Below, piece after piece: positions 14,653 to 29,418 of a stretch of 64,000 bases of DNA. This DNA comes from Prevotella sp. (GTDB lineage: Bacteria > Bacteroidota > Bacteroidia > Bacteroidales > Bacteroidaceae): assembly GCA_017619755.1 (NCBI GenBank), contig JAFZRU010000048.1, positions 1-64,000 of the forward strand, read 5' to 3'. The notes under the pieces were generated by a model. The model saw only the letters and a list, made by a program, of their open reading frames with translations. It was not told the DNA's origin and did not search any database. Position numbers and translations under genes: made by a program. Positions within the stretch are counted from its first letter, which is position 1; each line of letters opens with the position of its first letter.

Positions 14653-17600
14653 TTATTTGATGACAAACTTGCAGGACTTGCTGTGTCCGCCCTCGTCCGT
14701 CACGCGGGCGATATAGCATCCGTCAGAGAGGTGGTTGACTGGCACTTCGGCATAACCACCTTGCAGTTGGGTCTGGAGTTGACTCACCGACTGCCCAGCC
14801 AGGTTGTACAGTTCGACGTGGACGTTGCCGGGTTGCTTGCTGCGGACGATGAGGCGTCCAAGGACATAGCGAGCTGTCAGGTCGTTGTCGGCAAGCAAGG
14901 TCGTCGTCTCGATGCCCGTGGAGAACGGCTGCTCCACGTTCACCGCATAACTGCTGGTGATGTTGGTCTTCTCGATGGTGGGGTAGTTCATCACCTGTAC
15001 CGTGTTGCTGCCATCTGGGTATCTGCCCACTGTCTCGTCCTCCTGGTGCTTGGGATAGGTGAAGATGTCGCTCCATGAGTCGTCTTGGGCGGAGAGCATC
15101 ATGTCGCCACCATCGGCGTCCAGTTTGAACGATGCGTGCAACTGGCTGACGGGGCTCAACTTGTCGCACCAAATGATGAGATGTCCGTGCGGCGGGATGA
15201 CGGTGTTGGCCGTTGTCTCGCCTTTCTGTATCTGGTATTTGTGTGGTTTGTTCAGGTTGTCGGTGAGGTACATCCCCTCCACGTCGATGGGTGCGTCGGT
15301 GGTGTTGTAGAGTTCCACCCAGTCGTTGCGCTTCCAGTATTCGTTGACATAAACATTGTTGGCGGCACTCACCTCGTTGATGCGGACGGGCGTGATGCCT
15401 TGTTCCAGTCGTTCGTCCTCCGTCATGGGAGTGAAGTAGGCTGTTAGCTTCACACTGTTGTCGCTGGGCAGGTTGATGACAGCCTCCGTGGAGTAGATGT
15501 TGCTGGCGTTGCCCTTCTTCCATCCGGCGAAGACGTAGCCGGCGGGTGCTTTCGCCTCTATCTTTACGGGGGCGAAGAGGTAGCCGTTGAAGTATGCGCA
15601 GGGCACCTCAAGACCGTTGACGTACAGGTTGGCTCCTTGAGTGTTGGTGGAAAGTTCCACTTGTTGCCTTCTCACGTTGGAGAGTTGCATGGGCTTGAAC
15701 TCCTTCATGCGTGTTGTCACCGATGCGGTGCGTGTCTTAAGTTGCGATTTGATGACGTTGGCAGAGCCGTCGGGCGTGTGCCATCCGTCGAGTTGCATCA
15801 TCGGGCGCACCCGGTCGGCCAGTTCATCGACGATGGCCGTGCCGCGCTCCGTCTCGAAGACGCTGCCGCAAATGAGGCAGTAGGTGTCGATGAATTTCTT
15901 GCGGAACTCCTCGTTCTTGAGCATATTGAGGAAGAAGGTGACAATCTTGATTTCCTCGTACCGTTGTTCTTGGGTGTCGAAGATGAGGTTGAAGGTGTGC
16001 CATTGGTCCTTGGCGAACTCGGCGAAGGGGTCGTCGTACTTGAAGGCGTAGTCAAGGTCGAAGGTGACGAAGCGGTACCTGCCGTTCTCCTGGCTTCGGA
16101 ACCCCTTGATGTTGTTGTGAGGCCAGTCGTTGGAGCCGAGGAAAAGCTCCACGGCCATGTAGTTGAGGAACTCGTCGATGTCGAGAATCTGCTTGAGCTC
16201 CTCGTAGGCTGCCGGGTCGGGAGCTGCCGCCCCAAGTTCGTAGATGCGTTCCAGCACCTCGCTGTTGCCCACCATGAAGACGACGTTGGAGTCGGCGCTC
16301 ATCTCGAACATGTCGATTCTCTCGTCGTCATAGCCCCAGTTGGACTCCACGAACTTCTTGTTGTTGGGCTCCCTCATGTTGAGCACGCCCTTCATCTGGC
16401 CATTGACATATTCGATGACGGGGACATAGGATTGCAGGTCGAGGTTGATGCCGGCTCGTTGGATGATGGTCTGCAAGGCGGGGTCCATGAAGCGGCTGCC
16501 GCCATTCTCCCACACGTCGTTGCCGCCATTGCGAAGGAGGATCACCTTGTTTTTCAAGTAAGGCTTCTGTGGGAAGAACACGTAGTTGAGGCTGTTCTTG
16601 CCGTCAAATTCCTTGCCGGACTTGAGCTTGAACGACCGTGGGTTGGCCGAGCGCGTCCATCCTCCCGAGACGGAGATTTCCACGTCCTGGTTGATGGTCA
16701 TCACGCCTTCCGGGGTGATGAAGGAGAAGTTGACGGGTCGTTCCCAGTCCATGTTGTAGTTGCGAGGCTGCGACTGTCCGTTGCCGGTTCTGCCGTTGTT
16801 GCCGTCGGTGTCGATGCCCCATTTGCTGTCGGAGAAATATCTCTTGTCGCCGACGATGGAGACGACGGGTATGGTGTATTTGTCGTTGGTTTTGATGAAG
16901 GAGCGTGTGACGGGTACGCTGGGGAGGTAGCCGTCCTGGAAGAGCCGGAAGCAATAGTTGGTGGTGTTGCTGACGGTGAACTTTCCGTCGGTGCTGATGT
17001 TGCTACTGGGGAGATCCTCACCATGGAAGGACTCCCATGAGATGTCGTCGAAATAGAAGTTGTTTTCCGAGCCTCTCATCTCGTTGAGGTTGAAGGCGAT
17101 GGTCTGCAAGGTGCTGACGTCGCCGCCGCCCCACCACCATCCACCTCCTCCGCCGCCGGTCTGCTCCTGGGAGATGGTGCCTTCATAGACGATTTCCTGC
17201 CATTCGGTGCTGATGTCGTATCCGTTGTCGAGCATCTGCCATGTGATGTAGTCGCCGGGAGTGGAGTGTGCCTGGGCGGAGATGTGCGTGGCCTTGTCGG
17301 CGCGCACCTTCATCTTGAAGCGGAATTTCTCGTTGGCCTTCCACACGTGGTCGGGGGTATAGACGAAGAATTGGGTGTCCCAATCCTGCTGGGGGTTGGC
17401 GATGGCGTGAACTTTCACCCCTCGCGTGCCATTGTAGCCCACTCCGTCGATGATTTTGGTGTTGAATACCCCATGCTCGTCGCCGTCCTTCCCCACGAGG
17501 CTGGTCACGTCGTCCCCCTCGCAGTCGCCGTTGATGACGTAGTTGGTCCATTCGTTGACTTCCTGGCCTTGCTTGGGGCGTTGTGGCAGGCTGCCGTCGG

Positions 17601-18168
17601 TGGTGTATGCCAATGTGGCGCCCTCCGGGATGGTGACTTGGAAGGAGAAGGAGTTGGTGAAGACCTTGCTGTCCATGTTGACGACGGGGGCTTCAAGCCG
17701 TTGGTTGGAAAATTCCGCCGTGGCGTTGGTCTTCCCGGGGGTGGCGTCGGCTGTCCATCCCCATTCGCCCGTGCCGTCGGTCTTGCGGGCCCATGCGGTG
17801 CGGCTCATGGCCTCCGGGTATTCCTCGTTGGTGACAAGTTGTCCGTTCTTGTCGTACAGGTAGATGGTGCCGCCGTCGCAGTCGAGTTTGAAGGGAGCCT
17901 GCGTGGTCTTGATGTTGTTGGAGCCGAGCCACACCACCTTGAAGCCTTTGGCGGGGACGCTGCCCATATCGGCGGGCATGTGCCAGAGGGTGGGGTTGGA
18001 GGCATCGTCGCTGAGGTACATGCCTCCCAGTTCGACGGCCTCGTTGCCGGGGTTGTAGATTTCAATCCAACTGTCGAAATTGGTGGCGGGACTCATGGCC
18101 GTCCCGATGTTGGAGGCCATGATTTCATTGATGACTAATACTACTTCTAATAACGTTGATAATAGCAT
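14653..18168 (-). CDS. CotH-kinase protein with lamin-tail domains and type IX sorting domain
   Basis: The 1171-residue protein has, in order: a lamin-tail domain (about 12-135), the start of a chitobiase-C-like beta-sandwich (TTDGSLPQRP), a carbohydrate-binding-like insert of about 180 residues (about 205-385) with a run of Gly and Trp, and the rest of the sandwich. A CotH kinase domain follows (about 430-800, with SNDWPHNN and FDLDYAF), then an InlB-like repeat, a second lamin-tail domain (about 950-1070) and a C-terminal type IX sorting domain ending KSCKFVIK. CotH kinases of spores phosphorylate proteins; here the protein should be exported and surface-bound. The N-terminus is odd: only about 11 residues precede the lamin-tail strand VINEIMASN, with an internal Glu and no positive charge. 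The promoter box allows about a 30-nt leader, so no longer start exists. Confidence 0.8.
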   Translation of the reverse strand: MLLSTLLEVVLVINEIMASNIGTAMSPATNFDSWIEIYNPGNEAVELGGMYLSDDASNPTLWHMPADMGSVPAKGFKVVWLGSNNIKTTQAPFKLDCDGGTIYLYDKNGQLVTNEEYPEAMSRTAWARKTDGTGEWGWTADATPGKTNATAEFSNQRLEAPVVNMDSKVFTNSFSFQVTIPEGATLAYTTDGSLPQRPKQGQEVNEWTNYVINGDCEGDDVTSLVGKDGDEHGVFNTKIIDGVGYNGTRGVKVHAIANPQQDWDTQFFVYTPDHVWKANEKFRFKMKVRADKATHISAQAHSTPGDYITWQMLDNGYDISTEWQEIVYEGTISQEQTGGGGGGWWWGGGDVSTLQTIAFNLNEMRGSENNFYFDDISWESFHGEDLPSSNISTDGKFTVSNTTNYCFRLFQDGYLPSVPVTRSFIKTNDKYTIPVVSIVGDKRYFSDSKWGIDTDGNNGRTGNGQSQPRNYNMDWERPVNFSFITPEGVMTINQDVEISVSGGWTRSANPRSFKLKSGKEFDGKNSLNYVFFPQKPYLKNKVILLRNGGNDVWENGGSRFMDPALQTIIQRAGINLDLQSYVPVIEYVNGQMKGVLNMREPNNKKFVESNWGYDDERIDMFEMSADSNVVFMVGNSEVLERIYELGAAAPDPAAYEELKQILDIDEFLNYMAVELFLGSNDWPHNNIKGFRSQENGRYRFVTFDLDYAFKYDDPFAEFAKDQWHTFNLIFDTQEQRYEEIKIVTFFLNMLKNEEFRKKFIDTYCLICGSVFETERGTAIVDELADRVRPMMQLDGWHTPDGSANVIKSQLKTRTASVTTRMKEFKPMQLSNVRRQQVELSTNTQGANLYVNGLEVPCAYFNGYLFAPVKIEAKAPAGYVFAGWKKGNASNIYSTEAVINLPSDNSVKLTAYFTPMTEDERLEQGITPVRINEVSAANNVYVNEYWKRNDWVELYNTTDAPIDVEGMYLTDNLNKPHKYQIQKGETTANTVIPPHGHLIIWCDKLSPVSQLHASFKLDADGGDMMLSAQDDSWSDIFTYPKHQEDETVGRYPDGSNTVQVMNYPTIEKTNITSSYAVNVEQPFSTGIETTTLLADNDLTARYVLGRLIVRSKQPGNVHVELYNLAGQSVSQLQTQLQGGYAEVPVNHLSDGCYIARVTDEGGHSKSCKFVIK

Positions 18169-18361: not shown

Positions 18362-20107
18362 ATGAAGAAGCAAGCACTCTCCATTTGTGTGATGTTGCTC
18401 TTGGCATCCACAACTTTCGCTCAGTACCCACAGCTCACTGACGAGGCCAAACACCTTATCGACTCCCTTGAGACATGCTGGAAAGCCCATAGCGATTCCG
18501 CATGGGCCAAGGCTTTCCCCATCGTCATTGAAGAGGCGAAGGCCGGAAGGCCATACGTGCCATGGGCGGCACGACCCTACGACCTCCGACAGGCGAAAAT
18601 ACCCGCATTCCCCGGTGCCGAGGGCGGCGGCATGTACACCTTCGGCGGACGTGGGGGCAAGGTGCTCACCGTCACCAACCTCAACGACGACGGCCCCGGT
18701 TCCTTCCGGTGGGCATGCGAGCAGGGCGGGGCGCGCATCGTCGTCTTCAACGTCTCCGGCATCATTCGTCTCAAGTCGCCCATCTACGTCCGGGCGCCCT
18801 ACATCACCATTGCCGGGCAGACCGCTCCGGGGGAGGGGGTCATCATCGCCGGAGAGTCCTTCCAGGTGGACACCCACGATGTCATCGTCCGTCACATGCG
18901 TTTCCGCAGGGGGGAGACCCTCGTGTGGCACCGTGAGGACTCCTTCGGGGGAAATCCCGTGGGCAACATCATGATCGACCACTGCTCTTGCGAATGGGGG
19001 CTGGACGAGAACATCTCCTTCTACCGGCACATGTTCGACCTCGGCGACGGCAAGGACAAGCGGAAGGAGCCCACTGTCAATGTCACCATACAAAACACCA
19101 TTTCGGCGAAAGCCCTCGACACGTGGAACCACTCCTTCGGCTCCACCATCGGAGGGGAGAACACCACGTTTATGCGAAACCTCTGGGCCGACAACACCGG
19201 GCGCAACCCAAGCATAGGGTGGGGAGGCGTGTTCAACTTCATCAACAACATCGTCTATAACTGGGTGCACCGCACGGCTGACGGAGGGGAGTACACCACC
19301 ATGTCCAATTTCATCAACAACTACTACAAGCCCGGCCCCCTCACGCCCAAGGACGGAGCCGTGGGGCATCGCATCATCAAGTCGGAGAGCCGAAGCGTCA
19401 ACCTCTTCCCCTTCAAGCAGTTCGGCAGGATTTACGCCACCGGGAACGTTATGGAAGGATACCCCGAAATCACCAAAGACAATTGGAACGGAGGCATACA
19501 GACCGCTGACAAGGACGGGGAGATGGATGCCACCGAACTTGCCCTCATGCGCTCCAACGAGCCTTTTGAGATGCCTTTCGTCACCATCATGGGGGCGGAG
19601 AAAGCCTTCGAATGGGTCCTCGCCAACGCGGGAGCCACCATCCCGTGCCGCGACATCGTGGACCAGCGCATCACCGAAGAGGTGCGCACGGGAGTGGCAT
19701 ACTATGTGGACAAGTATGAGAAGAAGGTGAAGGACAATCCCTACGGCGACATGTGGGGGCTGCACAAGAAATCGCAGGACGAAGACGGCCTCTTCAAGTA
19801 CCGCCGTCTCGACAAGGACTCCTACAAACTCGGCATCATCACCGACCCCAGGCAGATGGGAGGATACCCCGTCTATGGGGAGTGGCAACCCAGGGTGGAC
19901 ACCGACGGCGACGGCATGCCCGACGAGTGGGAGAAGGACAACGGCCTCAACCCCAACGACCCTGCCGACGCCAACCAGGACTGCAACGGTGACGGTTACA
20001 CCAACATCGAGAAATACATCAACGCCATTCCCACGCAGTCGAAAGTGGACTGGCGCAACCTCAACAACAACTACGACACCCTCGCCGCCAAAGGCAAGGT
20101 GATGTGA
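18362..20107 (+). CDS. secreted pectate lyase-like protein (PL1 type)
   Basis: The start at 18362 begins a clear signal peptide (MKKQALSICVMLLLASTTFAQ); the frame is open further upstream but that part overlaps the promoter region. The 581-residue protein has the beta-helix lyase pattern of Bacteroidota PL1 enzymes: IPAFPGAEGGGMYTFGGRGG, then TVTNLNDDGPGSFRWA, IVFNVSGII, MIDHCSCEWG and NPSIGWGGVFNFINN. Residues about 505-555 hold Asp/Asn-rich calcium motifs (DTDGDGMPDEWE, DCNGDGYTN). It should cleave homogalacturonan by beta-elimination outside the cytoplasmic membrane. The stop overlaps the region of the transketolase ribosome-binding site, so it is the first gene of the sugar-catabolic operon. 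Confidence 0.85.
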   Translation: MKKQALSICVMLLLASTTFAQYPQLTDEAKHLIDSLETCWKAHSDSAWAKAFPIVIEEAKAGRPYVPWAARPYDLRQAKIPAFPGAEGGGMYTFGGRGGKVLTVTNLNDDGPGSFRWACEQGGARIVVFNVSGIIRLKSPIYVRAPYITIAGQTAPGEGVIIAGESFQVDTHDVIVRHMRFRRGETLVWHREDSFGGNPVGNIMIDHCSCEWGLDENISFYRHMFDLGDGKDKRKEPTVNVTIQNTISAKALDTWNHSFGSTIGGENTTFMRNLWADNTGRNPSIGWGGVFNFINNIVYNWVHRTADGGEYTTMSNFINNYYKPGPLTPKDGAVGHRIIKSESRSVNLFPFKQFGRIYATGNVMEGYPEITKDNWNGGIQTADKDGEMDATELALMRSNEPFEMPFVTIMGAEKAFEWVLANAGATIPCRDIVDQRITEEVRTGVAYYVDKYEKKVKDNPYGDMWGLHKKSQDEDGLFKYRRLDKDSYKLGIITDPRQMGGYPVYGEWQPRVDTDGDGMPDEWEKDNGLNPNDPADANQDCNGDGYTNIEKYINAIPTQSKVDWRNLNNNYDTLAAKGKVM

Positions 20108-20121
20108 GAAAAGGAAAGGAC

Positions 20122-20955
20122 ATGAACAACAAAGAACTTGTTTTATTGGCCGAACGCAACCGCAAGCGCTTGGTGGAGGTGGTCTTCCGAGCCAAGGCAG
20201 GACACATCGGCGGGGACCTCTCGTGCCTCAACGTCATGACGGCCCTCTATTTCCACGTCATGAGAAACCTCGACCCCGAAAACCCGAAGGCACCGGCGCG
20301 GGACCGCTTCGTACTCAGCAAGGGGCATTGCGTGGAGGCGCTGTATGTCACACTTGAAGCCAAGGGCTTCCTCAAAAGCGAGACCCTCGACACCCTCGGG
20401 AAGTTCGGCTCCATTCTCTCAGGCCACCCCACCATCGAGGTGCCGGGAATAGAGGTCAACAGCGGCGCCCTCGGGCATGGGCTGAGCATAGGGGTGGGAA
20501 TGGCCCTCGCTGCCAAGATGGACGGCAAAGACTACCGCACCTACGTCCTCATGGGCGACGGCGAGCAGGGAGAAGGGTCCGTCTATGAGGCTGCCATGGC
20601 GGCGCACAAGCACCATCTCGACAACCTCGTGGCTGTCATCGACCGTAACAGGCTGCAAATCAGTGGAGACACGGAGGACGTGATGCCCTTGGAGAACATC
20701 AAGGAGCGGTACACGGCTTTCGGATGGGAGGTTTCCGAGATGAACGGCGACGACATGGACGACATCGTGAGGACTTTCGACGCCATCGACTACCACAACG
20801 AGAGGCCACACCTCATCGTGAGCCATACCACCAAGGGCAAGGGCGTGTCTTTCATGGAAGGAGTGGCCAAATGGCACCACGGCGTGCTTGACGAGAAGCA
20901 GTGCCAACAAGCCGTGGAGGAGATAGAAAACAGAATCAAGCAGCTGATAGGCTGA
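20122..20955 (+). CDS. transketolase N-terminal subunit (split; possible apulose-4-phosphate transketolase)
   Basis: The 277-residue protein is the thiamine-diphosphate-binding half of a split transketolase: GHIGGDLSCLN, LSKGHCVEALY, GHGLSIGVGMA, the GDGEQGEG...NR diphosphate motif, and HTTKGKGVSFME. The start at 20122 is preferred over a GTG at 20104 because GGAAAGGA lies just ahead of it. It needs the next gene to make the active enzyme. With the kinase and isomerase downstream, and a pectin lyase upstream, its acceptor or donor may be apulose 4-phosphate (AptA/AptB-type enzyme) rather than the ordinary pentose phosphates. That substrate is inferred from gene order only. Confidence 0.85.
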   Translation: MNNKELVLLAERNRKRLVEVVFRAKAGHIGGDLSCLNVMTALYFHVMRNLDPENPKAPARDRFVLSKGHCVEALYVTLEAKGFLKSETLDTLGKFGSILSGHPTIEVPGIEVNSGALGHGLSIGVGMALAAKMDGKDYRTYVLMGDGEQGEGSVYEAAMAAHKHHLDNLVAVIDRNRLQISGDTEDVMPLENIKERYTAFGWEVSEMNGDDMDDIVRTFDAIDYHNERPHLIVSHTTKGKGVSFMEGVAKWHHGVLDEKQCQQAVEEIENRIKQLIG

Positions 20956-20975
20956 GAAAACACAATACCATCAAC

Positions 20976-21908
20976 ATGATTGCATGTAGGAAAATGTTCA
21001 CCGACACGCTGCTCCAATTAGCGCGGCAGGACAAGGACATCATTGCGGTGACAACAGACGCCAGGGGGTCGGTGACTTTAGGAGACTTCGCTGCACAACT
21101 GCCACGGCAGTTTGTGGAGTGCGGCATCGCGGAGCAGGATGCCGTGGGCATCGCGGCTGGTTTGGCGCACAGTGGAAAGAAAGTGTTCTGCTGCGGGCCG
21201 GCGTGCTTCTACGTCGCCAGGGCCCTCGAACAAGTGAAGGTGGATCTGGCATACAGCCAAAACCCCGTCACCATACTCGGTGTGAGCGGAGGGGTGGCCT
21301 ACGGGGCGCTCGGAGCCACGCACCACTCCTTGCACGACATCGCCGCCTTGGCTTGCTTCCCGGGGATGAACATCTGTCTTCCAAGCGACTGGAGGGTGAC
21401 TAAGAAACTGGTGGAAATGCTGGTCGATTTCCCACAACCTTGTTATGTCAGGGTGGGAAGGGCCGCCGTTCCCGATGTCTATCCCGATGACCATTTTGAC
21501 TTTCAGATAGGAAAGGCCATCCACGTCATGGACGGCGACGACCTCGCCATCGTGGCCACCGGGGAGACCGTCTATCACGCCTGGCAGGCGGCGCTCCTCC
21601 TGCGAGAGAAAGGTGTCAGCGCCAGGGTGCTCGACATGTCCTGGCTCAAGCCTTTCGACAGTGAGGCTGTCAGAAAGGCCGCGAGGGAGACCGGGAGGGT
21701 CGTCACCGTGGAGGAGCACAGCCGTCATGGAGGTCTCGGGGCTTTGGTCTGCGAGGCATTGAGCGAGCAGCCCGTGCCGGTGCGCATCATCGGAATACCC
21801 GACGAAAACGTGGTGCATGGCAGCAGTTTGGAAATATTCCACCACTACGGCCTTGATGCCGAGGGCGTGGCCAAGGCCGCCTTGGATTTCATCAACAACA
21901 AATCATAA
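20976..21908 (+). CDS. transketolase C-terminal subunit
   Basis: The 310-residue protein is the pyrimidine-binding and C-terminal half of transketolase. It has the catalytic Glu in VECGIAEQDAVGIAAGLA, the loop GVSGGVAYGALGATHHSLHD, and a C-terminal domain (HVMDGDDLAIVATG). It starts 20 bp after the partner subunit. Such split transketolases are common in catabolic operons for unusual sugars. The pair would transfer a two-carbon ketol unit in the cytoplasm. Confidence 0.87.
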   Translation: MIACRKMFTDTLLQLARQDKDIIAVTTDARGSVTLGDFAAQLPRQFVECGIAEQDAVGIAAGLAHSGKKVFCCGPACFYVARALEQVKVDLAYSQNPVTILGVSGGVAYGALGATHHSLHDIAALACFPGMNICLPSDWRVTKKLVEMLVDFPQPCYVRVGRAAVPDVYPDDHFDFQIGKAIHVMDGDDLAIVATGETVYHAWQAALLLREKGVSARVLDMSWLKPFDSEAVRKAARETGRVVTVEEHSRHGGLGALVCEALSEQPVPVRIIGIPDENVVHGSSLEIFHHYGLDAEGVAKAALDFINNKS

Positions 21909-21921
21909 GAAGGATAGTGAC

Positions 21922-23391
21922 ATGCACAAAATCATAGCCATCGACCAAAGCACTTCATCGACCAAGGCCATGCTCTTCGACGAGCAATGCCGCATGTTGC
22001 AACGGTGCCATGTGGACCACAAGCAATACTACCCCAAGGCCGGATGGGTGGAGCACGACCCGGAGGAAATATATCACAACATGGTGAAGACCATCGGGCA
22101 GCTCGTGCCAACGCCGGGGGAGGATGAATACAGTATGGCCATCACCAACCAGCTGGAGACCGTCGTCGTGTGGGAGAAGGCCACCGGGCAACCCATCTAC
22201 AACGCTCTCGTGTGGCAGGACAACCGAGGGGCGGAACTGTGTGCACAACTGCGGAGGCAGGGATGCCAGCAAATGGTTAGCGACAAGAGCGGACTGCTCA
22301 TCGACCCCAATTTCTCCGCCACTTGTGTCAGATGGGTGCTCGACAATGTGGAGGGAGCGCAGCAGGCGGCGGAGGAGGGAAAACTCGCCACAGGCACCAT
22401 CGACACCTGGCTCGTGTGGAAACTCACCGGAGGGAAGTCGTTCCTCACGGACACCACCAACGCTTCGAGGACGATGCTCTTCAACATCCACACTATGCAA
22501 TGGGACGAGGAGTTGCTGCAACTCTTCCGAATACCCCGCACCATGATGGCCGACGTGCTGCCGTGCGACGCTGTTTATGGAGAGACCACCGTGGAGGGGC
22601 TCTTCGACAAACCCATCCCCATCGCCGGCGTATTAGGCGACTCCCATGGTGCGCTTGTGGGGCAGATGTGTTTTGAGAAAGGTTCTGGAAAGGTCACCTA
22701 CGGCACCGGCTCTTCCGTCATGGTCAACATCGGGGAGCAAGCCCTGCCGGCACCGGAAGGATTGGTCACATCCGTGGGGTTCTCCGCCTTCGGCAAGCAC
22801 TTTTACGGATATGAAGGAAACATCTACAGCACCGGCGCCACCCTCAAGTGGATGGCCGACCAACTGCAATTAGTGAGCCATCCGTCGGAGATGGAGGCCA
22901 TCGCAGGAACCGTGACAACCACCGAGGGGGTGTATGTTGTTCCTGCTTTCGCAGGATTAGGCGCTCCATGGTGGAAGCCGGAGGCCAAGGCCGCCATCGT
23001 GGGCATGACATTCGCCACGACAAAGGCGCACGTCATCAGGGCCGCCTTGGAATCCATCGCCTACCAAGTGAGGGACCTCGTGGGGGTGATGGAAAAGGCC
23101 ACCGGCGGAACGCTGCGGGAAATATGCGCCGACGGAGGCCCCACAAAAAACCAGTTGCTCATGCAGTTCCAAGCCAACCAACTCGACACGCCCGTGGTGT
23201 GTACGGAGGTGGAGGATGCTTCGGCCATGGGAGCCGTCGTCATGAACGGCTTTGCCAGAGGGGTGTGGACGGACTTCTCACAAGTGGTCGGAATGAGAAG
23301 CATCACACAGGTCTTCAAGCCGGAACACTCTGCTGCTGTTGACGAGTGCTATGCGGGATGGCGGAAGGCCGTGGAAATGATAACGCGATAG
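21922..23391 (+). CDS. FGGY-family carbohydrate kinase (not a typical glycerol kinase)
   Basis: The 489-residue protein has both FGGY lobes: DQSTSSTKAMLFD (residues about 6-18), WVEHDPEEIY, GVLGDSHGALVGQ, VTYGTGSS and the C-terminal ICADGGPTKNQLLMQ. Overall it is closest in style to glycerol kinase. However, the glycerol-binding pair Arg-Glu of the NQRET motif reads NQLET here, so the Arg is replaced by Leu and glycerol is an unlikely substrate. Between split transketolase genes and an isomerase gene, a ketose kinase such as apulose kinase fits better. The gene starts 13 bp after the transketolase stop. Confidence 0.83.
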   Translation: MHKIIAIDQSTSSTKAMLFDEQCRMLQRCHVDHKQYYPKAGWVEHDPEEIYHNMVKTIGQLVPTPGEDEYSMAITNQLETVVVWEKATGQPIYNALVWQDNRGAELCAQLRRQGCQQMVSDKSGLLIDPNFSATCVRWVLDNVEGAQQAAEEGKLATGTIDTWLVWKLTGGKSFLTDTTNASRTMLFNIHTMQWDEELLQLFRIPRTMMADVLPCDAVYGETTVEGLFDKPIPIAGVLGDSHGALVGQMCFEKGSGKVTYGTGSSVMVNIGEQALPAPEGLVTSVGFSAFGKHFYGYEGNIYSTGATLKWMADQLQLVSHPSEMEAIAGTVTTTEGVYVVPAFAGLGAPWWKPEAKAAIVGMTFATTKAHVIRAALESIAYQVRDLVGVMEKATGGTLREICADGGPTKNQLLMQFQANQLDTPVVCTEVEDASAMGAVVMNGFARGVWTDFSQVVGMRSITQVFKPEHSAAVDECYAGWRKAVEMITR

Positions 23392-23416
23392 AAGAACGAA
23401 ATCAACCTATAAAGAT

Positions 23417-24838
23417 ATGAAAAACGGAAAAACTTGTTTTGGCGTGATCATCGGGACACGCGCCTATTTTAATTCGGAACTTGCGCGTGACGTGCGCAAG
23501 CAACTGCTCAAGACACTCGACAACCTCGGATATGAGTATGTCATCCTGCCGGAGGACGCCACGCCCACGGGGAGCAGCAGCATCGAGACAAGGGAGGACG
23601 GACTGAAGGTGGCAAGGCAGTTCCGCGAGCATCGCGACGAAATCGACGGCATCATCGTCTCGCTGCCCAACTTCGGTTTTGAAATCGGTATCATCAACGC
23701 CATCAGCGACGCCGACCTCAACGTGCCGGTGCTGGTGCAGGCTTGCGACGACGAGAACGACAAGGTGGACCTTGACAGCAGACGCGACGCCTTCTGCGGA
23801 AAAATATCCGTGTGCAACAACCTCTACCAGTATGGCATACCGTTCACCGACACCACGTTGCACACCTATTCCATCTACAGCCCGCTGTTGGAAAAGGACC
23901 TCGTGAAATTCGCCGCCATCTGCAGGGTGGTCAACGGGTTGCGCCACTGCCGCATCGGGCAGATCGGCACAAGGCCCTTGGGATTCAACACCTGCCGCGC
24001 CAGTGAGAAACTCTTGCAGAGGAGCGGAATCACCGTAGTGCCGGCCGACTTGTCGGAAATCCTCTTCGCTGCGCAGAAAATCAAGGACGACGACCTCGCG
24101 TTCCTCGACATGTGCAAGAAGGTGGAGGGCTATGCAGAGGTGCCTGACAACTACCGCGAGAAACTCAAACTACAGGCGAAATTCGGTGTGGCCGTGGAGC
24201 AATGGATAGAAGCCAACGACGTGCAGGCGGTGGCCATCCAGTGCTGGGACTCGTTGGAGCAGAACTATGGCTGCGCAGCATGCGTCACCATGTCCATGCT
24301 TAGCGACAAACTCATTCCGGCGGCTTGTGAGACCGACATCGCTGGGGCTGTCTCCATGTACGCCCTCGCCCTCGCATCGGAAAAGGCACCGGCCTTGCTC
24401 GACTGGAACAACAACTTTGCAGAGGAGCGCGACAAGTGCGTCTGCACACACTGCGGCAACTTCCCCAAGTCGTTCGTGAATAACAACCTCCGCCTCGGGC
24501 CGCTTGGCGTGCTTGGCCGTACGTTGGGTAAGGTGAACACCTTCGGGGCGGTGTATGCCAAGGTGACGGCTGGCGACTTCACGTTCTTCCGCATCTCCAC
24601 CGACGACCCGAAGGGGTGCATCAAGGCATATCTCGGAAAGGGGATTATCACCGACGACCCATACGGCATGGACGGGTGCATCGCCGTCACAAAGGTGGAA
24701 CGGTTGCAGCAGTTGATGAAATATATCTGCAAGAACGGTTTCGAGCATCACGTGGCCATGTGCCGCACCGATGTCGTGGAGATTGTGCAGGAGGCACTCG
24801 ACACCTATCTCGGGTGGAACCTCTATGTGCATGAGTGA
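23417..24838 (+). CDS. L-fucose/L-arabinose isomerase-family protein (possible D-apiose isomerase)
   Basis: The 473-residue cytoplasmic protein has the fold pattern of fucose/arabinose isomerases: an N-terminal GTRAYFNSELARDVR region, a middle PNFGFEIG segment, and C-terminal metal-site residues Glu in CETDIAG, Asp in LLDWNNN and His in CTHCGN. It would interconvert an aldose and a ketose using a divalent metal. As last gene of the operon it would feed the kinase and then the transketolase. D-apiose to apulose is my best guess because the operon begins with a pectin lyase and apiose occurs in rhamnogalacturonan II. Other pentoses or deoxyhexoses remain possible. Confidence 0.8.
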   Translation: MKNGKTCFGVIIGTRAYFNSELARDVRKQLLKTLDNLGYEYVILPEDATPTGSSSIETREDGLKVARQFREHRDEIDGIIVSLPNFGFEIGIINAISDADLNVPVLVQACDDENDKVDLDSRRDAFCGKISVCNNLYQYGIPFTDTTLHTYSIYSPLLEKDLVKFAAICRVVNGLRHCRIGQIGTRPLGFNTCRASEKLLQRSGITVVPADLSEILFAAQKIKDDDLAFLDMCKKVEGYAEVPDNYREKLKLQAKFGVAVEQWIEANDVQAVAIQCWDSLEQNYGCAACVTMSMLSDKLIPAACETDIAGAVSMYALALASEKAPALLDWNNNFAEERDKCVCTHCGNFPKSFVNNNLRLGPLGVLGRTLGKVNTFGAVYAKVTAGDFTFFRISTDDPKGCIKAYLGKGIITDDPYGMDGCIAVTKVERLQQLMKYICKNGFEHHVAMCRTDVVEIVQEALDTYLGWNLYVHE

Positions 24839-24860: not shown

Positions 24861-24894
24861 AAATCGCCCCGTCCACATTCGGTCGGGGCGATTT
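24861..24894. terminator. bidirectional terminator between convergent genes
   Basis: An 11-bp perfect stem (AAATCGCCCCG, 24861-24871, with 24884-24894) and a 12-nt loop lie between the two convergent stop codons. A-rich and T-rich flanks (AAAAA before, TTT after) allow it to act in both directions. Confidence 0.85.
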
Positions 24895-24918: not shown

Positions 24919-27900
24919 TCAGTTGCTGCCGGCAAGCACGATGTCCACGACGCTGGTCACGTCGCTGACGCTGATGACGTTGTCATCGTTGATGTCGGCT
25001 TGGTCGATGAAGAATATGGAGGGATTGTTGCCAAGAATGTATTCCACCAAGAGTGAGATGTCGGTGGTGGTCACTTGACCGTCATGGTTGACATCGCCCA
25101 TGAGCCAGTTCTCTTTCGAAGCCGTGGTGGCCTCGCCCAGACCACCCATCTCGTTGGCGGCGCGAACCGACCAAGTGGCGTCGGCGTCGTCCACCTCGTA
25201 GGTAGGTTCAATGGTGAAATCCACCACGCTGCCGTCTTTCACGATGGCCCAGCAGAACACGTGGTTGCTGTCGTCCCACGTCAGTGTGTTGCCGGAGAGC
25301 GTCACGTTGGTGGGGGCGCTCGCCTGCTCCGTGTAGCTGGTGGGATCCCATTCGCCATACATGTTGGTCATATCGGCGGCCTCGGCGGCTTCGGCGGCGG
25401 TCAGCACGGGGTTGTTGGTGTGGTCGCCACCAAAGACAGTTTTGCGACCGCTCAGGTCAACGCTCTGGCCGGAAGTGGTGGTGGAGTTATACTCGGCGAA
25501 GCGCTTGGGATAGCCGCCGCTCATCTCGCTCCAACCTTCGGCAGAAGGCACAATGTCCATCTTCGTGTCTATCCACAGCGCAATGGGCGTGCCTTGACCC
25601 CAAGGACGTCCCAAGGTGTATTTCCCGTTGAGTGCACTGCTCTCGCCCTTGATGGTGCAGTCCTTGAACACATAGCCATAATTGATGCTCTTCGATGGCA
25701 CGGCGATGTAGCCGCCGGTGTTCATGCACACTTGGATTTCCACGGCGTTGAAATAGGAGTCGCCTTTGCCGCAGAGGAAATCGGTGCGGCCGCGCACGAG
25801 GCCGTTCTCGAAGTAGTAGAGGCCGTTGTCGTTGTTCGAGGTCCATGTGTCCTGATAGCCCCAGAGGCAGGTGTTCTTGTAGATGGTGTTCGAACCCCTG
25901 TCTTGGACGGCGATGTTGCGGCCGCGGGCGTCTTCCATTCCGCTCTTCACGGTGAGGTCTTGGAAGTAGGTGTTCTTGACACTGTTTTGCAGTTGCAGCA
26001 CGTCGCTCTTGCTGATGCCGTCATAGACGCTCGTGGTGCCGTAGGTGCCGGCGTAGGTGGCGTCAGCAGGGATGTCGTTGGTGATGACCACGCCGTCCAT
26101 GCTCTCGCCGATGAACGAGATGTTGGAGGCGGAAATCTTGGTGATGGGGCTGGGATAGGTGTTGCCGTCATCGCTCACGATGGTCTCCGTTGCGTTTTGC
26201 GGCAGGGTGTAGGTGCCGTTGTGGAGGAAGATGCGGTAGCGGGTGGTCTTGTCGCTGCGGCTGTTGGCGGCGTTGATGGCGGCCACCAAGTCGGCGTCGC
26301 TCTTCACATAATAGTCATACAGACCCTTGGCAATTTCTGGCACGCTGCGGGTGGAGAAACTGATGGTGACGGCCTCGTCGAGGGTGTTCCCCGTGAGGTC
26401 GCTCACGCTGTTGGCTGGCAGGGTGAAGGTGTAGTTGGTGGAATAGGAGAGACCCTTGTATTCGAAGACCACCGTCTTGCCGCTGACCGTACCGGTGAGG
26501 GGTTGTCCGTTGAGGGTGGCCTCGGCACCGTCGGTAAGCATCACTTTCTCGTCGAAGGTGAGCACCACCTTGCCATTGGCGGAGGCATTGTCGGCGCCGT
26601 TCTCTGGCACGGTGCTGACGAGCACGGGTGCCGTGCCGTCGTCCTGCAGTTTTTCGGTGCCGGTGATGAACACCATGGCGATGGCGTTGCCGTCGTTCTT
26701 CGACGACGCACCTTTCACCTCCGATGTATAGTCGGGAATTATGCGCAACCATAGGTTGGCCTGATTGTTAGCTTCGGCGGTCAGCTGTCCGCTGTAGGAG
26801 CAAAGGGCCTTGGCACCGGTGAGGCTGATGCTCCCGTTGGTGACCCAGTTTTCGCCGTCGGTGGAGTATTCCACGTTGTATTTGGTGTAGGAGTTGTAGT
26901 TGTAGAGCATGTCAAACTGCACCTTGATGTCGGTGAAGGCGGTGGCGTTGACTTTCGTCTGCCAGTAGTAGTGTCCCACGTCGCCCTCTGTTTCACCTGT
27001 TTTCCAGTTGACGGCGGCGCCGGCCATTGACTCGTAGCCTCCGGCGGCCTCCGTGCTCTTGTCAAGCCAGGAGGTGGTGTTAGTGCCGTCGGTCAGGGTG
27101 AAGGCGGCTGTCTCGTTGTCTTCGGAGGCGAAGTCGGCCACGCGACCGCTGTTGCCCCGGACATAGAAGTCCCAACCGGCGATGATGTCGCTCTGCGAGA
27201 AGAAGGCGGTGAGGGTGACATCCTCCGTCATTTTCACGCGAATCTCCCGGGCGGTCTGTCCGTCGCTCCAGTTGCTGAAGTTCACCAAACCCTCGTATTG
27301 GTTGGCGGTGAGGGTGACGTAGGTGTCCTCCTCATACATGTTCTTCCCATCCACCACGGTGGGGGCGGGGTCGAGCTTCACCATGTAGTCGTTGCTCCCA
27401 TCGACGGTCAGGGCAAGCGAGTAGGTGTTCACCGCCTCGAAATTGGCGGTGAGGGCGGCCTCGCTTTCCACGGTGTAGGTGAACTTGGCGTTGGTGGAGA
27501 CCACGGAGCCGCCGGCATCGGTCCAGTTGATGAAGTGGTAGCCGAAGTTGGGGGTGGCGGTGAGGCTCACCTCGCTGCCGGCCTCGTAAACCTCGTCGTT
27601 GGGGTAGGCACTCACCGTTCCGCCCTCAGCCGGGTTGGCGGCGATGGTGAGGGGATAGGTGACGACGGCCTGAGTGATGCCGTTGAACGTGCCGCTCACC
27701 ACCACGTTGCCAATGCAGATGTTCTTGTTGTTGGCGCAGTCGGAGATGTAAATGCGGAAGGTGAACTCGTCCACGCCGCTCGCGCTGATATCGTGGCTGT
27801 GGTAGAGTTGGGCTTTATCAGCGTTTGTTCCGTTGTTGCGCAATAGGTCGTTCTTCGGGTCGTTAATCTTGGTGATTGTGCTCTCCACACCGTCGAGGGT

Positions 27901-29418
27901 GTAGCTCCAGCTGTAGGTGGCGTTGTCGGTGCCTACTTTCACGGCGGCATACGACACATTGGTGGGGGTGAATTTCACCCCTTTGGTGGCCTTCACTCGG
28001 TATTCAATCATCACGCCCTCCACGTTGCCGGCATTGCTGTTCTTCGGGGTGTAAATCACCATGGGAGTCTCAAAATAGGTGGCGTTGTCCCAGGTGAGGT
28101 CGCTGCCTATGCTCATCGACGCGCTGCTCACGGCCTCGGCGATGTTGCTGGCGATGTTGGGCGCGGCTTCGTTGCCCACCGGCCAGGTGATGGTGCCGGC
28201 CACGTTGTCGAAGGTCACGCCGCCACCTTGGATCTCCACCACAGGCAGCACGGCTTGGATATAGCGGTAATAGCTGCCCTCGCTGCCAAAGACGATGTCG
28301 ATGGTTTCCGCAGAACTGCCCACGGTGTAGGAGATGGTTTGTCCGCTTGTGTAGTCGTTTTGGCCGTCGATGGTCAGTGCCGTCAGGGCGTTGTAGGCCT
28401 CTACTGAAACGACGGCTCCCTTGCAGGAGGGGATGGTGAACGTGGTGCCTTCGTTGATCTGGCACCAGTCGGTCCAACCACCATTGTTCACCTTGCCGGG
28501 GCTTGTGGTGAAGTCGCATTTCACGTCAATGGTGCTGCCGTTGACGGTAGCTTGTGTGACATAGATGCCCGGCTTGTTTTGGTAATTGAGGGTGGGAGCG
28601 CCGTTCTTGCGCTGGAAGTCCCATTTCAGGGTGACAGCCGATGTGCGGTCGCCGAGGGCCACGCTGTTGGCAGTGAAAACGGGGGTGAGGGCCAAGTCGC
28701 TCTCAGGGGTCACTGAGGCTCCGGGTGCCCAAGTGTTGGTGCCGTCAGTCCAACCCGTGAGGGTGAAGCCGTCCTTGTAAAGCGTGCGGTTGAGAGGGAT
28801 GGTGACGCCTTCGCCGGCGGTCACCTCCACGCCGTCGGGGGCGACGCCCTCGGCACTTTCATTGCCCAAGGAATAACTCACGGCATACTTGGTGGGAGTG
28901 GTGTTCACTGCTTCCACCGCGACGTAGGGGCAGTAGCTCATACCGCTGATGGTGAGCGTGGTGGCTGGGCCGGAGTAGTAGAGTTCATCAACGTTGCTGC
29001 GGTTGTTTTTCCAGCAGGCGGGCGTAGTAGGTGTCTTCGAGGCTACTGTCTCGCCATCGCTGTTGGTCACCTTGATTTCATTCGTGCTGTAGGTGCATTG
29101 GCCCACGGTGATTTTCACTGCACCTTCTACAGGCACCACGACGCGTAAGCCCGTGCAGCCGTGGTCGCTGTGATAGGTGCCGCTGACGGTGGCCACGGAG
29201 GAAGCATCGTTGGCCTCCACGCGGCTAACGGTACCATCGGTACCGACGGTGATGCCGAAATTCACGGCAGTTCCCAGCTCTTGCTCGTTGTTGGTGAGCA
29301 ATGTGCCGCTCTGGTTGTTCACCACAACGCTGAAATCCTGAAAGGAGGCTTTCGCGTACTGCGCCATTCCTACTAATACAAGGAGGAGCAGGGTGAGGGT
29401 TTTGTAGGTTCTTGTCAT
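24919..29418 (-). CDS. multidomain secreted pectin methylesterase (CE8) with dockerin-like module
   Basis: The 1499-residue protein has a signal peptide (about 1-24) and a long array of beta domains: several carbohydrate-binding-like sandwiches (about 25-170, 250-395, 400-575, 740-910), InlB-type repeats (about 180-250 and 585-735; INWTDAGG, FSNWSDGQ), and an Ig-like Big_5 domain (about 915-1020; STVPENGADN). The CE8 esterase (about 1025-1350) keeps the motifs GYQDTW, GRTDFLCG and LGRPWG. The C-terminus is a dockerin-like pair of EF-hand loops (DVNHDGQVTTTD and DINDDNVISVSD, about 1433-1495). It should remove methyl esters from pectin at the cell surface and help lyases of the PL1 type. No type IX sorting domain is present. 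Confidence 0.85.
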   Translation of the reverse strand: MTRTYKTLTLLLLVLVGMAQYAKASFQDFSVVVNNQSGTLLTNNEQELGTAVNFGITVGTDGTVSRVEANDASSVATVSGTYHSDHGCTGLRVVVPVEGAVKITVGQCTYSTNEIKVTNSDGETVASKTPTTPACWKNNRSNVDELYYSGPATTLTISGMSYCPYVAVEAVNTTPTKYAVSYSLGNESAEGVAPDGVEVTAGEGVTIPLNRTLYKDGFTLTGWTDGTNTWAPGASVTPESDLALTPVFTANSVALGDRTSAVTLKWDFQRKNGAPTLNYQNKPGIYVTQATVNGSTIDVKCDFTTSPGKVNNGGWTDWCQINEGTTFTIPSCKGAVVSVEAYNALTALTIDGQNDYTSGQTISYTVGSSAETIDIVFGSEGSYYRYIQAVLPVVEIQGGGVTFDNVAGTITWPVGNEAAPNIASNIAEAVSSASMSIGSDLTWDNATYFETPMVIYTPKNSNAGNVEGVMIEYRVKATKGVKFTPTNVSYAAVKVGTDNATYSWSYTLDGVESTITKINDPKNDLLRNNGTNADKAQLYHSHDISASGVDEFTFRIYISDCANNKNICIGNVVVSGTFNGITQAVVTYPLTIAANPAEGGTVSAYPNDEVYEAGSEVSLTATPNFGYHFINWTDAGGSVVSTNAKFTYTVESEAALTANFEAVNTYSLALTVDGSNDYMVKLDPAPTVVDGKNMYEEDTYVTLTANQYEGLVNFSNWSDGQTAREIRVKMTEDVTLTAFFSQSDIIAGWDFYVRGNSGRVADFASEDNETAAFTLTDGTNTTSWLDKSTEAAGGYESMAGAAVNWKTGETEGDVGHYYWQTKVNATAFTDIKVQFDMLYNYNSYTKYNVEYSTDGENWVTNGSISLTGAKALCSYSGQLTAEANNQANLWLRIIPDYTSEVKGASSKNDGNAIAMVFITGTEKLQDDGTAPVLVSTVPENGADNASANGKVVLTFDEKVMLTDGAEATLNGQPLTGTVSGKTVVFEYKGLSYSTNYTFTLPANSVSDLTGNTLDEAVTISFSTRSVPEIAKGLYDYYVKSDADLVAAINAANSRSDKTTRYRIFLHNGTYTLPQNATETIVSDDGNTYPSPITKISASNISFIGESMDGVVITNDIPADATYAGTYGTTSVYDGISKSDVLQLQNSVKNTYFQDLTVKSGMEDARGRNIAVQDRGSNTIYKNTCLWGYQDTWTSNNDNGLYYFENGLVRGRTDFLCGKGDSYFNAVEIQVCMNTGGYIAVPSKSINYGYVFKDCTIKGESSALNGKYTLGRPWGQGTPIALWIDTKMDIVPSAEGWSEMSGGYPKRFAEYNSTTTSGQSVDLSGRKTVFGGDHTNNPVLTAAEAAEAADMTNMYGEWDPTSYTEQASAPTNVTLSGNTLTWDDSNHVFCWAIVKDGSVVDFTIEPTYEVDDADATWSVRAANEMGGLGEATTASKENWLMGDVNHDGQVTTTDISLLVEYILGNNPSIFFIDQADINDDNVISVSDVTSVVDIVLAGSN

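Follow-up and report, generated by a model that had tools for sequence, protein, structure and literature searches.

We found that five plus-strand genes in a 64,000-nucleotide stretch of a Prevotella sp. genome (assembly GCA_017619755.1, contig JAFZRU010000048.1, positions 1 to 64,000; hereafter the window) very probably encode the known non-oxidative, transketolase-type route of D-apiose catabolism, preceded by the gene of a predicted secreted pectin lyase. Apiose, a branched-chain sugar, is among the rare constituents of plant pectin. The route, comprising ApsI, AplK, AptA and AptB, was reportedly described by Carter et al. in 2018. The isomerase would convert D-apiose to D-apulose, the FGGY kinase would phosphorylate D-apulose to D-apulose 4-phosphate, and the two-subunit transketolase would transfer a two-carbon unit from D-apulose 4-phosphate onto glyceraldehyde 3-phosphate, so that dihydroxyacetone phosphate and xylulose 5-phosphate are formed. 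The PL1-type lyase would cut a galacturonan backbone outside the cytoplasm, and cutting and catabolism would be produced together, probably on rhamnogalacturonan II (RG-II). The pathway itself is already known, and the lyase added to it is a local variant.

The genome with the operon has a size of 3.7 Mb and is ~86% complete. All five genes lie where the initial annotation had placed them, closely spaced on the plus strand between 18362 and 24838, with 14, 20, 13 and 25 bases from each stop codon to the next ATG, and they are presumably co-transcribed. The four apiose-type genes taken alone (gaps of 20, 13 and 25 bases) form a single cluster. The families assigned initially held for the split transketolase, the FGGY kinase and the fucose-isomerase-type isomerase, all of which passed Pfam cut-offs: the N-terminal transketolase subunit (TKA) scored 162 bits with PF00456, the C-terminal subunit (TKB) 108 bits with PF02779 and 116 bits with PF02780, the kinase 208 bits with FGGY_N and 131 bits with FGGY_C, and the isomerase 113 bits with Fucose_iso_C (PF02952). 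The PL1-like lyase was matched weakly by curated models, and a solved structure supports its assignment, as described below.

The kinase groups with AplK and apart from glycerol kinase (GlpK). In a tree of 15 AplK-side and 10 GlpK rows, from which two unreadable GlpK rows (L066 and L068; loci carry L numbers and genomes G numbers) had been dropped, it falls into one clade with the cluster kinases of E. coli, Klebsiella, Rahnella, Sodalis and Monoglobus at a support of 100/96, with all 10 GlpK rows outside. The two groups are also split by marker residues, GDSH with GTGSS, GTGTS or GTGAS on the AplK side (15 of 15) versus GTGCF in GlpK (10 of 10); the window kinase carries GDSH and GTGSS and does not fit the GlpK pocket pattern GDQ[QH] plus GTGCF. 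Two of the GlpK loci in the comparison (L084 and L085) adjoin genes that, by eye, resemble glpD and glpF. Thus, of the comparison with xylulose, fuculose and glycerol enzymes proposed in the initial annotation, the part that was run places the kinase with AplK. What that annotation had called an altered glycerol pocket is in part AplK-typical (GDSH and GTGSS) and in part a change unique to the window genome, Leu for Arg, which is considered below. A second pocket position, assigned from GlpK structures, is Asn in the window kinase, and Tyr (49), Asn (30) or Ser (3) in the 82 readable homologues. In two loci, L037 (6561-8057) and L153 (8311-9783), the kinase gene is inverted, the lyase-transketolase-isomerase operon being otherwise unchanged.

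The isomerase belongs to the family found in the apsI position of enterobacterial apiose clusters. Over 98-99% of its length it shares 46% identity with the 'fucose isomerase' of clusters from Rahnella, Sodalis and Klebsiella INF102. In these plasmid records the isomerase lies between AptB and AplK, with AptA in the cluster, together with a substrate-binding protein (SBP), a DUF2291 protein, an ATP-binding cassette (ABC) ATPase, a permease and a sugar-binding regulator. It is from this position that we infer the window-type isomerase to be ApsI; an initial assignment of ApsI to the TIM-barrel proteins was contradicted by the same three clusters and was dropped. Ten aligned isomerases share an invariant Glu, Asp and His, which look like metal ligands, as well as the motifs CGKIS[VL]CN, DWNNNF and EHHVA. 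Among solved structures, no sequence match to the isomerase was found with E up to 1. In records from two other lineages, Monoglobus and Listeria, a distant isomerase (27-29%) is accompanied by a kinase, a transketolase pair and a gene resembling those of apiosidases, which matches PF13204 in Monoglobus and is annotated as DUF4038 in Listeria.

TKA is 42% identical to AptA and TKB 36% identical to AptB of E. coli SE15. Transketolase pairs from L119, L122, L123, L124, L125 and L132 were also considered as pathway members and were set aside because their neighbours, judged by eye, resemble surface-sugar genes. In L119 (9743-11445), L122, L123 and L132, two-subunit transketolases lie in clusters whose sugar-nucleotide genes resemble, by eye, those of nucleotidyltransferases and dehydratases, and may possibly make branched surface sugars.

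The set of four genes recurs in relatives. A search of genome contigs with an isomerase alignment was followed up in its best 80 matches, which do not represent a census; genes in these named loci were counted by tblastn, with Pfam run on representatives. By the isomerase, the closest named relatives of the window genome are Prevotella and Prevotellaceae assemblies, many of them sampled in the rumen or other ruminant gut. TKA, TKB, kinase and isomerase are contiguous in 49 of the 80 loci, where the three gaps reach at most 183, 155 and 218 bases, and one of these complete sets (L153) has the inverted kinase. Segatella baroniae B14 (L201) and Xylanibacter rarus 109 (L208) are isolates that carry the set. 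The isomerase stands without kinase or transketolase within reach in 24 loci, several of which were ended by a contig end, and kinase and isomerase stand without transketolase within reach in five. Among 29 isomerase-bearing genomes, 25 have a TKA relative, four within the fetched locus and 21 away from the fetched isomerase stretch; all 25 reach E 1e-100, a level attained by 14 of the 251 genomes sampled from the family.

Pectin-related genes and transporters accompany the set in part of these loci. Within 4 kb of it we found glycoside hydrolase (GH) family GH95 in 5 of the 80, GH141 in 3, a glucuronyl-esterase-like gene with GH28 in 2 and a GH140-like gene in 1, and, as for transport, a Ureide_permease/Sugar_transport-type permease in 14 and an importer-type SBP in 2. 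Kinase and isomerase share a cluster with SBP and ABC genes in L079, L081 and L083 (genomes G143, G073 and G153) and in L139, whose SBPs are 32-35% identical to that of the E. coli apiose cluster; the ATPase and permease of L139 are 45% and 40% identical to their E. coli counterparts. Pfam identifies DUF2291 in L079, in L083 and in E. coli, and the assignment in L139 is by 40% identity to L079. The window operon itself contains no importer gene. The apiose operon proposed in the initial annotation thus gains support from the kinase clade, from the isomerase in the apsI position and from the ABC importer in some relatives, while RG-II as the origin of the apiose is suggested by neighbouring genes. 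Proteins of the Sde182 type, resembling nucleoside hydrolases, also occur near apiose genes (L139:7263-9872, L081:7444-8871, L198, L194, L170 and L189), within 4 kb in 5 of the 80 loci, one of them partial. The assignment is by Pfam for L139 and by 30-57% identity for the others, and it is possible that they act as apiofuranosidases.

As compared with the transketolase-type D-apiose pathway known so far, the window operon has the same four enzyme families, including a two-subunit transketolase and, as in Rahnella, Sodalis and Klebsiella, an isomerase of the fucose isomerase family. Unlike those clusters, it is headed by a PL1-like lyase, lacks an adjoining ABC importer and sugar-binding regulator, and has the kinase before the isomerase rather than behind it. 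Sets such as L118 and L204 from Bacteroidales show the same order of TKA, TKB, kinase and isomerase, with isomerases 81% and 77% identical to that of the window, but carry a Ureide_permease/Sugar_transport-type permease behind the isomerase and a DeoR regulator, and no lyase. The RG-II loci of Bacteroides thetaiotaomicron hold a GH140 apiosidase, GH95, GH78, GH2 and GH141. A similar run occurs in the window genome, where the one PF13204 apiosidase (366 bits, contig 49) has a GH95 gene on one side and, on the other, a GH78 gene that carries a BNR domain and then a GH2 gene, and some relatives have GH141, GH95 or glucuronyl-esterase-like/GH28 genes beside their apiose genes. In contrast to the B. 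thetaiotaomicron loci, however, this RG-II-type run is on another contig, and the operon holds the lyase only. In E. coli and E. fergusonii, the cluster ECSF_RS02670-RS02715 encodes AplK, AptA and AptB proteins 37%, 42% and 36% identical to those of the window, but no isomerase; it has two short-chain dehydrogenase/reductase (SDR) genes, as well as SBP, DUF2291, ABC ATPase and permease genes. Strains with an AplK/AptAB-type cluster, three of E. coli and one of E. fergusonii, are reported to grow on D-apiose, and the Escherichia cluster is stated to be without apsI (PMC13001218). Among the titles and abstract beginnings of the literature on apiose catabolism and apiosidases, we found no publication on this operon in Prevotella.

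The lyase encoded by the first gene has an N-terminus that looks by eye like a signal peptide, and is probably secreted. At E 0.001 it had no match among the Pfam lyase models, and it scored 134.6 bits with NCBIfam PelZ, far below the cut-off of 840, and 141.6 bits with the solved pectate lyase PDB 9buj. PL1 relatives with >60% identity were found in 7 of the 80 named loci, where they precede the complete set in four (L152, L153, L155 and L163) and kinase and isomerase in three (L141, L142 and L143). These last three have a lyase-kinase-isomerase arrangement without the transketolase pair, and a more distant TKA (61-65%) is encoded elsewhere in the genome. The joint of lyase and apiose genes is also present in G009, G031 and G035, which may overlap the genomes of the four named loci. 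The initial annotation had called the position of the lyase unusual, which is too strong: a lyase heads a complete set in four of the 80, and relatives show several other ways in which apiose genes are joined to genes for pectin degradation.

Several observations weigh against the assignment to the apiose route. The NCBIfam GlpK subfamily model accepts the window kinase, with 590 bits at a cut-off of 498. In its pocket, this kinase carries Leu where all 82 readable homologues (duplicates kept) and two enterobacterial AplKs carry Arg; the change may be an assembly or consensus error, or may mean that the enzyme is damaged or its substrate altered. In the isomerase tree, from which six paralogue rows (L015, L016, L017, L019, L023 and L024) were left out, Bacteroidales and enterobacterial isomerases form one clade in 28% of bootstrap trees, and the joint clade is unrejected at an approximately unbiased p value (p-AU) of 0.535. 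Moreover, the isomerases of L042 and L043, which stand beside another FGGY kinase, branch at the same fork as the window-type isomerases, although they are 36-38% identical to the Rahnella isomerase as compared with 43-47% for the window type; an aldolase-like gene (by eye) adjoins the more distant isomerase of L043. The joint transketolase tree puts the window pair with AptAB at a weak support of 75/67, and the identity of the pair to E. coli AptAB, 37.5%, is close to the 32-36% seen with pairs from sugar-nucleotide clusters and below the 40.5% seen with one pair from another cluster. Where the initial annotation had looked to orthology with the characterized enzymes, the isomerase fits the apsI position by family and the transketolase joins AptAB in the best tree, which makes both putative orthologues. 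As for uptake, BLASTP showed no match between the DUF2291 protein of E. coli and those of L079 and L139, in an importer comparison that had no unrelated ribose-importer control, and searches of the window genome (~86% complete), run without a positive control, turned up nothing related to the L118 permease and, for the L139 SBP, a partial match of 25% only. Finally, G375, G350, G333 and G024 hold lyase copies of 76-85% identity, and for these four genomes the comparison across the family listed a full-length transketolase only, or none, and no separate TKA.

Considering the acceptance by the GlpK model, the kinase might be taken for a glycerol kinase, all the more since its identity to Bacteroidales GlpKs (43-47%) exceeds that to E. 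coli AplK (37%), and the isomerase, with its Fucose_iso_C domain, for an enzyme acting on fucose, arabinose or xylose. Such an ordinary route is highly improbable: tree and marker residues group the kinase with AplK, a glycerol route has no use for a dedicated two-subunit transketolase and no need of an isomerase, and the aldolase of a fucose- or rhamnose-type route is absent from the window operon. We also regard as quite unlikely a related route for some other unusual sugar, either another branched one or a sulfonated one. SftI (NF048012) is the sole NCBIfam match of the isomerase, and the isomerase tree leaves room for such a function, but the SftI score of 117 bits is far below the cut-off of 700, which argues against sulfoquinovose. 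Sulfo-transketolase routes have split transketolases and are not known to include a kinase, whereas the kinase here is AplK-like, and some relatives have pectin- or RG-II-type enzymes and an importer of the E. coli apiose-cluster type as neighbours.

With D-apiose catabolism retained as the function of the four-gene set, it might still be that the lyase is a mere neighbour, expressed on its own for general homogalacturonan use, and that the apiose genes form a separate unit. The copies in G375, G350 and G333, three of the four genomes just mentioned, adjoin susC/D-like genes (by eye), as does a second, 75% identical copy in the window genome itself, and no preceding lyase is seen in 45 of the 49 complete named sets, although in 8 of these the contig ends first. 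We nevertheless consider separate units unlikely, given the 14-base gap of the lyase-transketolase joint with its purine-rich, ribosome-site-like stretch, and given that the joint is conserved: it recurs in G009, G031 and G035, in the four named loci and, with the kinase next to the lyase, in L141-L143. Since close relatives of the lyase are also found in susC/D loci, it was probably recruited to the head of the apiose set, and looks like a general pectin enzyme placed there in one Prevotella group. For the same reason, that close copies adjoin susC/D-like genes, the lyase was rejected as proof of an RG-II role. In G448, whose apiose genes lie elsewhere (L130), an 84% identical lyase copy lies near genes that resemble by eye those on either side of the L077 set, which are of the GH141 and rhamnosidase-like types.

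The operon is bounded on both sides by minus-strand genes (Table 1). The protein of the convergent one has motifs that look pectinesterase-like, and a Pfam search gave no pectinesterase match for it. The inverted repeat between the convergent gene ends was missed by a consensus scan with a loop limit of 8 bases, its own loop being 12 bases.

Table 1. Coordinates of the operon genes, their surroundings and the side cluster found in relatives (window positions unless a locus is named).
Feature	Position	Strand	Basis or location
PL1-like pectate/pectin lyase, first gene of the operon	18362-20107	+	Open reading frame (ORF); NCBIfam PelZ below cut-off; PDB 9buj
Transketolase N-terminal subunit TKA, AptA-like, predicted apulose-4-phosphate transketolase	20122-20955	+	PF00456
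Transketolase C-terminal subunit TKB, AptB-like	20976-21908	+	PF02779/PF02780
FGGY kinase, AplK-like, predicted D-apulose kinase	21922-23391	+	FGGY_N/FGGY_C; tree
Fucose_iso_C isomerase, ApsI-like, predicted D-apiose isomerase	23417-24838	+	PF02952
Perfect 11-bp inverted repeat with 12-base loop, terminator-like, between convergent gene ends	24861-24894	.	By eye
Divergent flanking gene: LTD/CotH-domain protein with type IX secretion system (T9SS) sorting tail; operon boundary	14653-18168	-	ORF, profile matches
Convergent flanking gene: large secreted-looking dockerin-type protein	24919-29418	-	ORF, profile matches
Aldolase-symporter-PdxA-kinase run	L155:11451-18087; L157:11458-17400; L153; L037:9891-15869		Behind apiose isomerase
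Four-gene version in the window genome, without iron-dependent alcohol dehydrogenase (Fe-ADH)	Contig 66, L225:4376-9024		Away from operon

In some relatives a further group of genes follows the isomerase. An aldolase gene of the dihydrodipicolinate synthase (DHDPS) type lies directly behind it in 7 of the 80 named loci, and an SSS symporter is present in 6; Fe-ADH, PdxA and a kinase then follow in L153, L155, L157 and L037, sometimes with an SDR, and L140 and L143 have PdxA and the kinase without Fe-ADH. The best NCBIfam model for this kinase is D-threonate kinase, at 88 bits versus a cut-off of 450, and the PdxA protein passes the cut-off of the general pdxA model and misses that of the D-threonate 4-phosphate dehydrogenase model. 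We put forward, as a doubtful but possible reading, that the lyase-apiose operon of rumen Prevotella makes up half of a rare-sugar island for RG-II, with the side cluster as a route for its 3-deoxy heptulosaric acid (Dha). Aldol cleavage of Dha would yield pyruvate and D-threuronate, the latter would be reduced to D-threonate, and phosphorylation and oxidation of D-threonate would lead to dihydroxyacetone phosphate; the stereochemistry of cleavage and reduction to D-threonate is our deduction from the structural formulas. In the literature on Dha aldolase, DUF1537/PdxA2 and D-threonate, judged from titles and the beginnings of abstracts, no Dha route was found. As a separate observation, an apiose-type cluster is also present on an 11.6-kb linear 'plasmid' record (L136, CP110761.1), which has one transposase- or nuclease-like gene and no annotated replication gene and may be an assembly fragment.

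In summary, the operon would place the apiose route in Prevotella-type gut bacteria, and would bring the cutting of pectin and the use of its rarest sugar together in one transcriptional unit. Across genomes, the kinase, isomerase and transketolase genes are paired with differing pectin enzymes and importers, and these varying partners offer a practical way to find further genes for RG-II sugars through their neighbours. The lyase, along with the acid cluster neighbouring the apiose genes in relatives, points to RG-II as a candidate substrate.

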